NCBI GenBank assembly: GCA_013003075.1
Contig: JABDLJ010000018.1
Location: forward strand, 1-64,000
DNA length: 64,000 bases
Direction: 5' to 3'
Origin: Paracoccaceae bacterium
GTDB lineage: Bacteria > Pseudomonadota > Alphaproteobacteria > Rhodobacterales > Rhodobacteraceae
The notes under the pieces: generated by a model
Databases searched by the model: none
Told to the model about the DNA's origin: nothing
What the model saw: only the letters and a program-made list of their open reading frames with translations
Shown: positions 21,554 to 24,892 of the stretch, one piece after another
Layout: every line of letters starts with the position of its first letter
How positions within the stretch are numbered: the stretch's first letter is position 1
Program-made: the position numbers and the translations under genes

Positions 21554-22741
21554 ATGCAGGGCATGAATCCACTAGACCGCGAGGCCGAGCCGCAATTTAC
21601 CCAACCGGTGCGTCAGATCTTTCTGATGCTGATGGTGCTGGGCCTGGGGGGCTTCGGCGCGTATATCGCCTATCCGAAAGTCGCGCCGGTGTTTCTGGCC
21701 AACCCCTACCTCAATGGCTTTATCGGGTTCGTCTTCATCATCGGGATCTTCGCCTGTTTCTGGCAGGTCTTCCAGTTGGTCAGTTCGGTCAGCTGGATCG
21801 AGGGCTTTGCCGCCGAACGGCCGGGCCACCAATTCACCCGCGCGCCGCGGCTTCTGGCGCCGCTTGCCTCGCTTCTGCGCAGCCGCGGGGTGCGGATGCA
21901 GATTGGCGCATCCTCGTCCCGGTCCATTCTCGACAGTGTGGCCACGCGCATCGACGAAGCCCGTGACATCACGCGATATATCGTCAACTTGTTGATTTTC
22001 CTAGGCCTTCTGGGTACTTTCTTCGGCTTGGCCACAACCGTGCCGGCCGTGGTCGATACGATCCGCAGCCTTGCACCGACCGAGGACGACACCGGGATCG
22101 AGGTCTTCGGGCGGCTGATGAACGGGCTCGAAGCCCAGCTTGGCGGCATGGGCGTGGCGTTTGCGTCCTCGCTTCTGGGGCTGGCCGGATCGCTGCTGGT
22201 CGGGCTGCTGGAGCTCTTTGCCGGCCACGGTCAGAACCAGTTCTACCGCGAGCTTGAGGAATGGCTGTCCACTATCACGCGGGTCGGCTTTTCGGCCGGC
22301 GACGGCGACGGCGAGACAGGCGGCGCCGCGGCCTTCACGGACACCGTGCTGGATCACATGGCCGAGCAGATGGACGCGCTGCAAACGCTTTATGAAAGCT
22401 CTGATGCGAGCCGTTCGAATATCGACATGCGCCTTGTTGGGTTGGCCGAAACCATCGAAAGGCTGGTGAAGAAAATGGATGGCGATGCCGGCTCGGCCGG
22501 CACGCTCGCGCGCATCGCGGACGGACAAGAGCGTCTGATCTCGATCGTCGAAGGTCAGCCCGCGCCCAGCACCGGCGGTGGAGGCGGGGATGCAGAGGCA
22601 CGCATGCGGCTGCGCTCGATGGACGTGCAGCTTCTGCGTATCCTAGAAGAGCTTTCCGCAGGCCGCCAGGAAACGGTGGCCGATCTGCGCACCGATCTGG
22701 CGCAACTGACCCGCGCCGTCAGAGATCTGGGCCGGGGCTGA
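21554..22741 (+). CDS. MotA/TolQ/ExbB-type proton-channel protein
   Basis: A 395-residue inner-membrane protein. Hydrophobic segments lie near residues 22-42, 50-75, 155-180 and 200-225; the block LIFLGLLGTFFGLATTVPAVV is the hallmark of the MotA/TolQ/ExbB proton channel. A cytoplasmic C-terminal tail of about 150 residues follows, including a Gly-rich linker. The start is uncertain: ATG 21554 or ATG 21563, neither with a strong ribosome-binding site. The next gene, three bases downstream, encodes the MotB-like partner. No flagellar, Tol or TonB gene is nearby. Confidence 0.85.
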   Translation: MQGMNPLDREAEPQFTQPVRQIFLMLMVLGLGGFGAYIAYPKVAPVFLANPYLNGFIGFVFIIGIFACFWQVFQLVSSVSWIEGFAAERPGHQFTRAPRLLAPLASLLRSRGVRMQIGASSSRSILDSVATRIDEARDITRYIVNLLIFLGLLGTFFGLATTVPAVVDTIRSLAPTEDDTGIEVFGRLMNGLEAQLGGMGVAFASSLLGLAGSLLVGLLELFAGHGQNQFYRELEEWLSTITRVGFSAGDGDGETGGAAAFTDTVLDHMAEQMDALQTLYESSDASRSNIDMRLVGLAETIERLVKKMDGDAGSAGTLARIADGQERLISIVEGQPAPSTGGGGGDAEARMRLRSMDVQLLRILEELSAGRQETVADLRTDLAQLTRAVRDLGRG

Positions 22742-22744
22742 CCC

Positions 22745-24523
22745 ATGGCACTCACCCGGCGGTCATCGCAGCGCGTCTCCAACTCGATCTGGCCGGGGTT
22801 CGTCGATGCGATGACGGCGCTCTTGCTGGTACTGATGTTCGTGCTGACCATCTTCATGGTCGTGCAGTACGTGTTACGCGAGACGATCTCGGGACAAGAG
22901 GACGAGCTGGACGAGTTGACCTTCGAAGTCGCGACACTTGCGCGCGCGCTGGGGCTGGAGCAGCAGCGCACCGCCAATCTGGAAGACCGCGCCGCGGCGC
23001 TTTCGGCGGATCTGTCGGCCGCGCGGAACGAGGCCGAGCAGCAGGCAACGCTGATCGCGACGCTCACCGGTCAGATCGGTACGCAGGAGGCGCAGCTGGC
23101 CGAGGCCGCCGAACGCATCACCAGTTTTGAGGCGCAAGTCGCTACGCTTCTGGCGCAGCGCGACGAGGCGCTTGCCGCTGGTGAGGCGCTGACTGCCAGC
23201 GTGGAAGAACTGGAGGCCGCCGAGGCGCAACTGATCTCGCAGCAGGAAGCGCTGCAACTGGCGCTGGCGCAGGCGCGCGACGAGGTCGACGTGCAGGCCG
23301 AGGCCGCCCGCCTCGCTGCTGCGCGCCGCGAGGCGCTTGAAGCGCTGACCGCCGACCTGCGCGCCCGCGCCACGACTGCCGAAGAGGCGCTTTCAGATGC
23401 CGAGGCCGCGCGCCTTGCCGATGCCGCCGCCGCCGAGGCACTGCGCGAGCGGCTGGCCAATGCCGATGCCGAGCTGACGGCGATGACGCTGGCGCTCGAG
23501 GCCAAGCGACAAGAGGCCGAGGACACGCTCACGCTTCTTGCCGCCGCGCAGGCCGCCGAAGAGAACCTGACCGAGCGGCTTGCCGATGCGCTCGCCGCGC
23601 GGCTGAACCTATCGGGAGATCTTGAGGCAACGCGTGCAGAGCTTGAGCGCCTGCAATCGCTTACCGGCAGCGAAGAACAGCTGCGCGAGCAGCTGGCCGC
23701 CGCGCTTGCGGCAAAGATCGCGGCTGAGCAAGATGCCGCGAGCACCCTCAGCGAGGCCGAAGAACGCGCGGCGCTTCTGGCCTCGGCCAATAGCGCGCTG
23801 GAACTCGAAGAGGCCAAATCCGCGGAAAGCCTGCGGCGGGTTTCGGTCCTGAACGAGCAGATCGCCGCGCTGCGCAACCAGCTTGGCTTGTTGCAGTCGC
23901 TGCTTGATGATGCTGCCGCCCGAGACAGCGCGGCGCAGGTGCGGATCGAGGCGCTGGGCTCTCAGCTGAATGTGGCCCTTGCGCGTGCCGCGGCCGAAGA
24001 ACGCAAGCGCGCCGATCTCGAAGAAGAGCGCCGCAAGCTTCTGGAGGTCGAGACCGAGCAGCTGGAGCGCTACCGCTCAGAATTCTTCGGCCAGCTGCGC
24101 GACGTCCTGGCAGGCCGCGAGGGTGTGCGGATCGTCGGCGACCGCTTCGTCTTTTCCTCCGAGGTGCTGTTCGAAAGCGCCTCGGCCGATCTTGCGCCGG
24201 CGGGCCGCGACCAGATCGCCAACGTGGCCGCGATCCTGCTTGATGTGTCTGACCAGATCCCCGAAGGGCTCGACTGGATCCTGCGCGTCGATGGCCACAC
24301 CGACGACATCCCGTTGCAGCCGGGCGCCGAGTTCGCCGACAACTGGGAGCTAAGCCAGGCCCGCGCGCTATCGGTCGTGCGCTTTCTGACCGAGAATCTG
24401 GGCTTTCCGCCGAACCGGCTGGCGGCAACCGGGTTCGGGGAATTCAGGCCGGTCGCGCCAGAAGACACGTCTGAAGCGCGCGCGCAAAACCGGCGGATCG
24501 AGTTGAAACTGACAGAGCGTTAG
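22745..24523 (+). CDS. MotB/OmpA-type protein with very long coiled coil
   Basis: A 592-residue protein. A single transmembrane segment (about 20-43, FVDAMTALLLVLMFVLTIFM) begins with Asp21, in the place of the ion-carrying Asp of MotB. Residues 50-450 are an Ala/Glu/Leu-rich coiled coil. The last 130 residues are an OmpA-like peptidoglycan-binding domain (VRIVGDRFVFSSEVLFES, then DGHTDDIP and QNRRIELKL). Together with the MotA-like gene it should form an ion-driven unit that grips peptidoglycan. The coil is far longer than in MotB, TolR or ZorB. Its cellular role is unknown to me. Confidence 0.85.
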   Translation: MALTRRSSQRVSNSIWPGFVDAMTALLLVLMFVLTIFMVVQYVLRETISGQEDELDELTFEVATLARALGLEQQRTANLEDRAAALSADLSAARNEAEQQATLIATLTGQIGTQEAQLAEAAERITSFEAQVATLLAQRDEALAAGEALTASVEELEAAEAQLISQQEALQLALAQARDEVDVQAEAARLAAARREALEALTADLRARATTAEEALSDAEAARLADAAAAEALRERLANADAELTAMTLALEAKRQEAEDTLTLLAAAQAAEENLTERLADALAARLNLSGDLEATRAELERLQSLTGSEEQLREQLAAALAAKIAAEQDAASTLSEAEERAALLASANSALELEEAKSAESLRRVSVLNEQIAALRNQLGLLQSLLDDAAARDSAAQVRIEALGSQLNVALARAAAEERKRADLEEERRKLLEVETEQLERYRSEFFGQLRDVLAGREGVRIVGDRFVFSSEVLFESASADLAPAGRDQIANVAAILLDVSDQIPEGLDWILRVDGHTDDIPLQPGAEFADNWELSQARALSVVRFLTENLGFPPNRLAATGFGEFRPVAPEDTSEARAQNRRIELKLTER

Positions 24524-24541: not shown

Positions 24542-24892
24542 TCAGTACAGCTCCCAGTCATCCTCGTCGCGCAGCGCACCGATCGCCATCCACGCGACGC
24601 GAACGCGGGCAATGCGGGTATCGCCCCAGGTCCGGAATACGATCTGAAATCCTTTGCCCGAGATCTTGTCGGCCGACACGTCGGCCCGCGCATTGGTCTT
24701 TTGATCCATGTCCCACATCTCGAAGCCGACCTGCACGGCGGGCGCCCCGCGAAAGGGCTCGCTGAAAGCCACCGCCTGCCGAAACTCGCGCGGGCCTGTG
24801 CCGGTCCACATCGGACCGTCATCCTCGAAGTCGGAAAACAAGAGCGACGTGCCCTGATCGACCCCGACAAATCTGGTGTCCAAACGCTTCAT
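24542..24892 (-). CDS. H-type lectin-domain protein
   Basis: A 116-residue protein that is nearly all one H-type lectin domain: VAFSEPFRGAPAVQVGFEMWD, then GFQIVFRTWGDTRIARVRVAWMAIG, which matches the PF09458 pattern (F-S-x-P-F, W-x-A-I-G). Members in snails bind GalNAc; bacterial members are uncharacterised. No signal peptide is visible. It faces the MotB-like gene convergently and lies just downstream of the ATP synthase terminator, as a separate unit. Confidence 0.75.
   Translation of the reverse strand: MKRLDTRFVGVDQGTSLLFSDFEDDGPMWTGTGPREFRQAVAFSEPFRGAPAVQVGFEMWDMDQKTNARADVSADKISGKGFQIVFRTWGDTRIARVRVAWMAIGALRDEDDWELY

Follow-up and report, generated by a model that had tools for sequence, protein, structure and literature searches.

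The described systems closest to the locus reported here are flagellar MotAB, an A/B pair whose B subunit binds peptidoglycan, TolQR-TolA and ExbBD-TonB, and ZorAB of the Zorya systems. TolR and ExbD are not known to carry an OmpA domain; TolA, like the B protein considered below, has a long helix that crosses the periplasm. Here we analyse two adjacent genes, A and B, in a 64,000-nt stretch of DNA from a Paracoccaceae bacterium (contig JABDLJ010000018.1). This whole stretch is referred to as the window, and all coordinates are positions in it. Judged by their sequences, A and B probably form a proton-powered motor of the bacterial envelope. In particular, we put at roughly one in two the probability that the pair is a non-flagellar, non-Zorya proton motor of the 5:2 class that carries a continuous rod and keeps the envelope layers in step beside Tol-Pal. 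Of 100 genomes sampled from the window's family (its own counted), 99 match the A profile, and a P0001 search (E <= 0.001) matched 131 of 192 genomes of its class, genomes of 0.7-1.0 Mb included. This probable motor pair is widespread and has no established function.

Window B is a member of an already named family, scoring 823.9 bits against NF006542 (PRK09039.1-1) where the curated cut-off is 388. The name given in NCBIfam PRK09039 (NF006542-NF006546), 'peptidoglycan -binding protein', states no function and says no word of a motor, an A partner or a coil; proteins of the sibling families have 342-350 aa. A pair of adjacent genes described as 'MotA/MotB' in the non-flagellated alphaproteobacterium Komagataeibacter hansenii (Jacek et al. 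2019, PMC6570709) is likely orthologous to the window pair because of its architecture and a Rhizobium match at 98% coverage. According to the parts of that paper covered here, the K. hansenii A protein has 348 aa and four transmembrane helices (TM), and the B protein, far shorter than window B, has 321 aa with one TM and an OmpA-like domain; the authors treat the genes as MotA/MotB homologues. When either gene was overexpressed, the cells were elongated and formed chains; GFP fusions were polar, or bipolar in longer cells (PMC6570709, same parts). A 2025 survey (PMC12505986), in the sections that we drew on, separates flagellar from generic ('GIT') transporters, leaves ZorAB outside its tree and describes generic B subunits as lacking an OmpA-type domain. 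The window pair, which combines a TolQ/ExbB/ZorA-type A with an OmpA-type B, runs counter to that rule for non-flagellar B subunits as stated there.

The earlier note on this DNA had proposed an envelope motor with an undescribed task. This holds in that the pair is best read as separate from the flagellar, Tol, Ton and Zorya systems and has no established task, but the pair is not isolated: it is conserved in the class, its B protein is named PRK09039.1-1, and PMC6570709 (in the parts covered) deals with a probable orthologue. The family name existed already; the present analysis adds the interpretation as a motor, the rule for the coil register and the gene upstream of A. Among the matches listed in the open-access literature there was no study naming a function of the PRK09039.1-1 pair, a term search of the signature-protein paper PMC2241609 gave no match, and the covered parts of PMC9389320 do not mention the pair. 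(An OmpA-family co-precipitate in the DalA paper PMC10470522, RSP_1033, could not be tied to B from the portions of that paper considered.)

Affinities of the A and B proteins

Both open reading frames (ORFs) lie side by side at 21554-24523, where a MotA/MotB-like pair had been predicted; the TGA stop codon of A occupies 22739-22741 and the ATG of B begins at 22745, leaving a gap of 3 nt. The features read directly from sequence are a channel-type A, an Asp-bearing B, an OmpA head and a register-constrained coil. B has a single TM by hydropathy (residues 22-40), directly after D21 of the motif WPGFVD, which is the arrangement of one N-terminal TM and an Asp seen in B subunits of 5:2 motors. 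This residue and a C-terminal OmpA domain (Pfam OmpA, residues 475-583, 58 bits) bear out the MotB-like layout that the earlier note had described. In a Foldseek search the head of B matched MotB-like and OmpA structures, the top row being the MotB-like DVU_2228 (E 9.7e-10).

Hydropathy analysis of A gave five rows, two of them overlapping, and hence four hydrophobic stretches. The motif GLLGT with T155 is invariant in an alignment of 22 rows, providing the polar Thr in TM3 of 5:2 motors, and an AlphaFold2 model built from 22 rows (mean predicted local distance difference test score, pLDDT, 66.1; well predicted at about 20-80 and 130-240) has the long TM3 and TM4 helices of A subunits of this superfamily. 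A scores 14.1 bits against Pfam PF01618, under the cut-off of 22.9, so that Pfam alone would miss it. Its relationship to the 5:2 motors is one of profile-profile and fold comparison only, according to which A would be a distant homologue that works like them. When a profile of 58 A proteins was compared by hhalign with those of the described systems, an outlying TolQ row (L206) being excluded, the best of the three matches was to ten ZorA3-like proteins (98%, E 1.9e-13), followed by ten TolQ/ExbB proteins (88%, E 3e-6) and, most distantly, nine flagellar MotA proteins (30%, E 6e-4). In fold, A resembles TolQ and ExbB, which were the top Foldseek rows for the model, with ZorA from rank 22 (best E 2.9e-3); the VIA-align Z scores were 11.2 for TolQ, 11.0 for ExbB, 10.8 for type I ZorA and 9.2 for a MotA. 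Note that A is not the TolQ of this genome, since the only PF01618 match in the assembly (65% complete) is a separate TolQ on another contig (C1 of G000).

Heptad register of the B coil

The earlier note had placed about 400 residues of Ala/Glu-rich coiled coil between the membrane Asp and the OmpA domain of B, and had named its helicity beforehand as refutable. We measured 409 residues consisting of 25% Ala, 17% Leu and 15% Glu, with no proline; AlphaFold2 predicts helices at residues 17-203, 217-305 and 310-455, and the hydrophobic pattern peaks at 3.50 residues. A continuous coil of 410 residues would be about 61 nm long, in agreement with the earlier estimate of about 60 nm, and for other B proteins the estimated rod length is about 25 nm at least and up to 148 nm.

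For comparison, we assembled a near set of 84 loci, comprising the window, L032-L111 (80 loci, of which, judged by their titles, 77 belong to Rhodobacterales, L081 to Sphingomonadales, and L053 and L102 to Alphaproteobacteria only) and L112-L114, together with a far set of 57 loci (L115-L171) from other families of the class, all 57 of those fetched having an A gene. B was measurable in 76 of the 84 near-set and 49 of the 57 far-set loci; among the far-set B left out, five failed the Asp pattern and three loci had no complete B carrying the C-terminal motif. Near-set coils have 300-994 residues and far-set coils 165-753 (Mann-Whitney p 5e-16); the shortest near-set coil is that of L081, and the next one has 370 residues. 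Proline is absent from the coil in 123 of the 125 measurable B proteins, including all 76 of the near set.

These very different lengths follow a rule. The distance between the membrane Asp and an LN motif in the distal coil, an anchor found in 117 B proteins, takes 83 distinct values between 141 and 921, and 71 of these are 1, 4 or 5 mod 7 (35.6 expected; binomial p 1e-15), 42 of them being 1 mod 7. At a period of 3.5 the Rayleigh z is 36.2, a value reached by none of 200,000 jittered sets. Kinship was controlled for by taking 58 disjoint closest pairs whose members differ in length: 50 pairs differ by 0, 3 or 4 mod 7 (p 1e-11) and 30 by a multiple of 7 (p 2e-11). Control quantities were flat at period 3.5 (A length, z 0.10; upstream protein length, 0.04; an interval within A, 0.42), and the period was not seen between the LN anchor and the C-terminal motif (z 1.26 and 0.67). 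(A quantum of 7 alone, tried on near-set coil lengths, was not significant, with z 0.4; the rule is therefore one of 3.5, that is, of heptads and stutters.) Steps of 3 or 4 residues are stutters or stammers, which keep the hydrophobic seam.

Within single proteins, the phase coherence of the window coil is 0.79, compared with about 0.33 for random registers, and the median is 0.76 in the near set and 0.94 in the far set. Composition by heptad position was determined for the main register class only (32 and 30 proteins); in the far-set main class, position a holds Leu 44, Ile 15 and Val 10%, and position d Leu 44 and Ala 17%. Ile or Val at a with Leu or Ala at d is the pattern of parallel dimers.

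Because the heptad register is kept over such different lengths, a continuous rod is favoured, in which two B chains would form a parallel coiled coil. Such a rod may soften near residues 183-230, and the longest coils may be interrupted more often. An antiparallel, folded-back bundle of about 25-30 nm, which would fit the periplasm and make the rod spatially unremarkable, is an unlikely alternative. Such a bundle would account for the three helical segments of the AlphaFold2 model with their gaps at 204-216 and 306-309, for the weak, Ala/Arg core of a first conserved coil island, and for the poorer register of the longest coils. The interval from AAAR to LLAA, which spans the first gap, is nonetheless 1 mod 7 in 11 of 12 distinct lengths, and the interval from LLAA to LN, which at 65-649 residues carries most of the length variation, is in register (z 15.1). 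The coil intervals do not covary (Spearman 0.12, 0.11 and -0.01 in 52 proteins), which speaks against matched antiparallel arms, and the lack of proline from every near-set coil likewise tells against folding back. Accordingly, the claim of the earlier note that the coil must fold back, run along the wall or be interrupted is narrowed: a continuous rod that is angled or runs along the wall is favoured, folding back is disfavoured, and interruption keeps some probability in view of the low-confidence AlphaFold2 break at 202-214.

The first island has its motif in 57 of 76 near-set B and in none of 49 others, and the LTLLAA motif of a second island is found in 71 of 76 and again in 0/49; the LN anchor occurs in both sets (70 of 76 B in the near set, 46 of 49 in the far set). 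The two islands may be docking sites.

With regard to how coils can grow, one far-set locus (L158:3720-4687, B gene) contains direct repeats spaced 84 bp, equal to 28 residues or four heptads, in six copies, five of which are 61-71% identical to the reference copy. Repeats of this kind can be one way of lengthening a coil; unlike L158, the window coil has only two short tandem arrays.

Proposed mechanism and alternative explanations

In the motor that we envisage, five A subunits would surround the two membrane helices of B in the inner membrane, as the fold suggests. Ion flow past Asp21 of B, most plausibly of protons, would turn A against a wall-anchored B, the two B chains would run as a continuous rod from the membrane towards the OmpA head (an arrangement that the sequence statistics support), and the head, by virtue of its domain type, would bind peptidoglycan. 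The periplasm is 20-30 nm wide. A rod of about 25 nm at least, and of 61 nm here, could therefore not stand upright in the periplasm of long-coil species and would most likely lie at an angle or along the wall, with the result that the motor and its wall attachment would be laterally far apart. A rod longer than the periplasm is thick bears on envelope machines that act at a distance. Excess reach as such is not unique to the window pair, since TolA domain II, with 110-335 residues, is often longer than the width of the periplasm, and TonB domain II has up to 245 residues (PMC12204202, parts covered); it is the scale that is unique, B coils having 165-994 residues.

The task is the least certain element. 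Most likely, the motor would coordinate the inner membrane, the wall and the outer membrane at the poles or division site, beside Tol-Pal. TolQ matches were found in 185 of the 192 class genomes (171 over the curated cut-off). Of the 55 genomes in which A lies on the same contig as a listed tolQ, 48 have the two no more than 50 kb apart (median 16.8 kb among these 48). Short contigs favour such nearness; on contigs over 1 Mb the two genes lie within 50 kb in 14 of 20 (0.65 expected), and on the two such contigs from the window's family they are more than 500 kb apart. Together, the K. hansenii phenotypes and the synteny with tol suggest that the motor works at poles and septum. An exported OmpA-like protein encoded upstream of A at most far-set loci would be a candidate third component, in place of which the window's family may have its extra conserved coil islands.

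More tentatively, the pair could be a further alphaproteobacterial proton motor beside Tol and Ton that passes torque or tension sideways along the wall by way of a continuous coiled-coil shaft of two strands, 25 to nearly 150 nm long, so coupling the envelope layers at poles and septum. On this equally tentative extension, shaft length would be free to change, almost only in heptad and stutter steps, and mechanical continuity rather than length would be under selection.

Several observations weigh against the motor with a continuous rod. The AlphaFold2 model of B (a monomer, 23 rows, predicted template modelling score 0.32) has two interruptions of the coil, one at 306-309 and one at 204-216, the latter with pLDDT <50 over residues 202-214; these predicted breaks are the strongest evidence against continuity. 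Phase coherence in the nine coils of more than 700 residues is 0.31-0.69, three of them, at 0.31-0.35, being near the random value of about 0.21, and the register is kept in 27/27 of the shortest third, 25/28 of the middle third and 19/28 of the longest. For A, there were no Foldseek rows at E 0.001 or below, and Z alone is weak evidence because unrelated long-helix proteins reach Z 8.9. A tree of A with TolQ, ExbB, MotA and ZorA-like proteins (88 rows) was discarded as saturated, with inter-group branches of 3.7-6.3 changes per column and a branch of about 10 for the outlying TolQ row L206, and was replaced by the profile comparison without that row. In other families, coil length is unrelated to the presence of the upstream OmpA-like gene (p 0.89). 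A and tolQ are on different contigs in 55 further genomes, which says little. MotA1 (TIGR03818) represents one MotA family, and its absence does not prove that a genome lacks flagella. Finally, the K. hansenii result comes from overexpression, with faster spreading as well, and expression of the genes in E. coli caused no change (PMC6570709, parts covered).

Long rods can be purely structural, as in Omp-alpha of Thermotoga, and the coil might correspondingly be a static tether from the inner membrane to the wall, with the motor idle or vestigial. That coil length is not conserved would be in keeping with such a passive spacer. We regard it as improbable in view of the conservation of the membrane Asp motif and of the A channel residues, and of the retention of A and B together, a B-cluster ORF being present in 138 of 141 compared loci (84 near and 57 far).

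Much less probable is a Zorya-type anti-phage motor. The likeness is real: the nearest A profile is that of ZorA3-like proteins, PADLOC models match the pair (ZorA1, 3e-9; ZorB3, 1.3e-24), and ZorB also has a membrane Asp and an OmpA-type head. Set against this are the occurrence of the pair in nearly every genome of the family, a gene order common to several families, and the ten flanking genes, among which there was no PADLOC match at E <= 1e-5 and so no ZorC/D, E or F/G accessory gene. Moreover, the short A tail and long B coil are the reverse of the ZorA3-like pairs compared; in the parts covered of PMC11890865, the long rod of Zorya is cytoplasmic and on ZorA, with a tail of several hundred residues, whereas the window A tail has about 140 and the rod of the window pair would be periplasmic and on B. 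An alternative flagellar stator is the slightest possibility of all, for while the B head is like that of MotB and is matched by NCBIfam MotD/MotB models, the MotA profile is the farthest of the three from that of A, the annotated neighbours include no flagellar family, and A is found with MotA1 in 76 genomes and without it in 55 (28 of 61 A-negative genomes have MotA1), with no association among the 192 genomes (Fisher p 0.12).

Gene neighbourhood, features and further loci

Within the window, a ChaC gene lies upstream of the pair and an H-type lectin gene downstream. The earlier note had stated that flagellar, Tol, TonB and Zorya partners are lacking nearby; this is upheld for the ten flanking genes searched with PADLOC and in that no Tol gene was found beside the pair, the rest of the window having stayed outside that scan. 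An Rfam scan of the window at the gathering threshold and a tRNA scan gave no matches. Of the 84 near-set loci, 79 have a ChaC-cluster ORF and 44 an ORF from a cluster in which one member was identified as an M23 peptidase. Frequent upstream genes in the far set are, by sequence reading, thiE, efp and suhB-like genes. At 43 of the 57 far-set loci, the product of the gene directly before A has an apparent export signal, a linker rich in Pro and Ala, and an OmpA domain of divergent sequence. The best score of this domain in 41 genomes of the window's family is 45.3 bits, against at least 130 bits in 49 genomes of the class search (some being sources of the profile), so that no clear orthologue of the upstream gene is evident in the window's family. 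Eight genomes (G003, G031, G082, G097, G120, G140, G174 and G185) match the upstream protein at E <= 1e-26 and gave no hit for A in the P0001 search.

The C-terminal tail of A is presumably cytoplasmic. A proteins of some other families are shorter and lack it, and short A proteins accompany short coils (p 0.006, relatedness being ignored). The features of the pair are collected in Table 1.

Table 1. Positions of genes A and B and of their features in the window
Feature	Position	Strand	Basis
Gene A, MotA/TolQ/ExbB/ZorA-type channel protein	21554..22741	+	ORF; 395 aa
A helix 1, membrane (residues 19-47)	21608..21694	+	AlphaFold2, hydropathy
A helix 2, membrane (residues 51-86)	21704..21811	+	AlphaFold2, hydropathy
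A helix 3 (residues 119-172), holds invariant GLLGTF and T155	21908..22069	+	alignment (22 rows), AlphaFold2, hydropathy
A helix 4 (residues 181-241)	22094..22276	+	alignment, AlphaFold2, hydropathy
A C-terminal tail (residues 258-395), helical at low confidence	22325..22738	+	alignment, AlphaFold2
Gene B	22745..24523	+	NCBIfam NF006542; 592 aa
B membrane helix; motor Asp D21 (WPGFVD) at 22805-22807	22793..22870	+	alignments, hydropathy
B coil (residues 43-455), proline-free, heptad register coherent	22871..24109	+	composition, periodicity, AlphaFold2
Conserved coil island 1 (residues 178-205, AARLAAARREAL)	23276..23359	+	motif in near-set B
Candidate coil weak point (residues 202-216)	23348..23392	+	AlphaFold2 break of low confidence, core rich in Ala/Arg, length variable here in relatives
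Conserved coil island 2 (residues 229-268, LTLLAA at end)	23429..23548	+	motif in near-set B
Distal coil segment (residues 364-452), LN anchor	23834..24100	+	motif in relatives
OmpA-family peptidoglycan-binding domain	24167..24493	+	Pfam OmpA; Foldseek

Outside the class, a phylum sample of 249 genomes gave strong A matches in five genomes, three of them from one genus, and 12 weak matches, 11 of which lie in ORFs of 698-898 aa. Eleven out-of-class loci (L234-L244) have an A of 675-855 aa, in ten of them with a partner B of 208-225 aa that has an OmpA-type end. With a long A and a short B, they are the mirror image of the window pair, and could be either pairs like Zorya type III or housekeeping relatives. 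Within the class, L171 (G172:C1, a 1.3-Mb genome) has an A-like domain inside an open frame of 1336 aa.

The window's own genome has a second A-B locus (L112, G000:C46:1344-2522) on a 4-kb contig, its A being 78% identical. The similarity of this contig to L032 (76% over 3.4 kb) extends further than that to the window (76% over 1.5 kb), so the second locus may stem from contamination of the bin by a related species and not from a duplication. Finally, the small H-type lectin-domain gene beside the pair (24542-24892, minus strand; PF09458, 75.6 bits) stands between the motor genes and apparent ATP synthase subunit genes.

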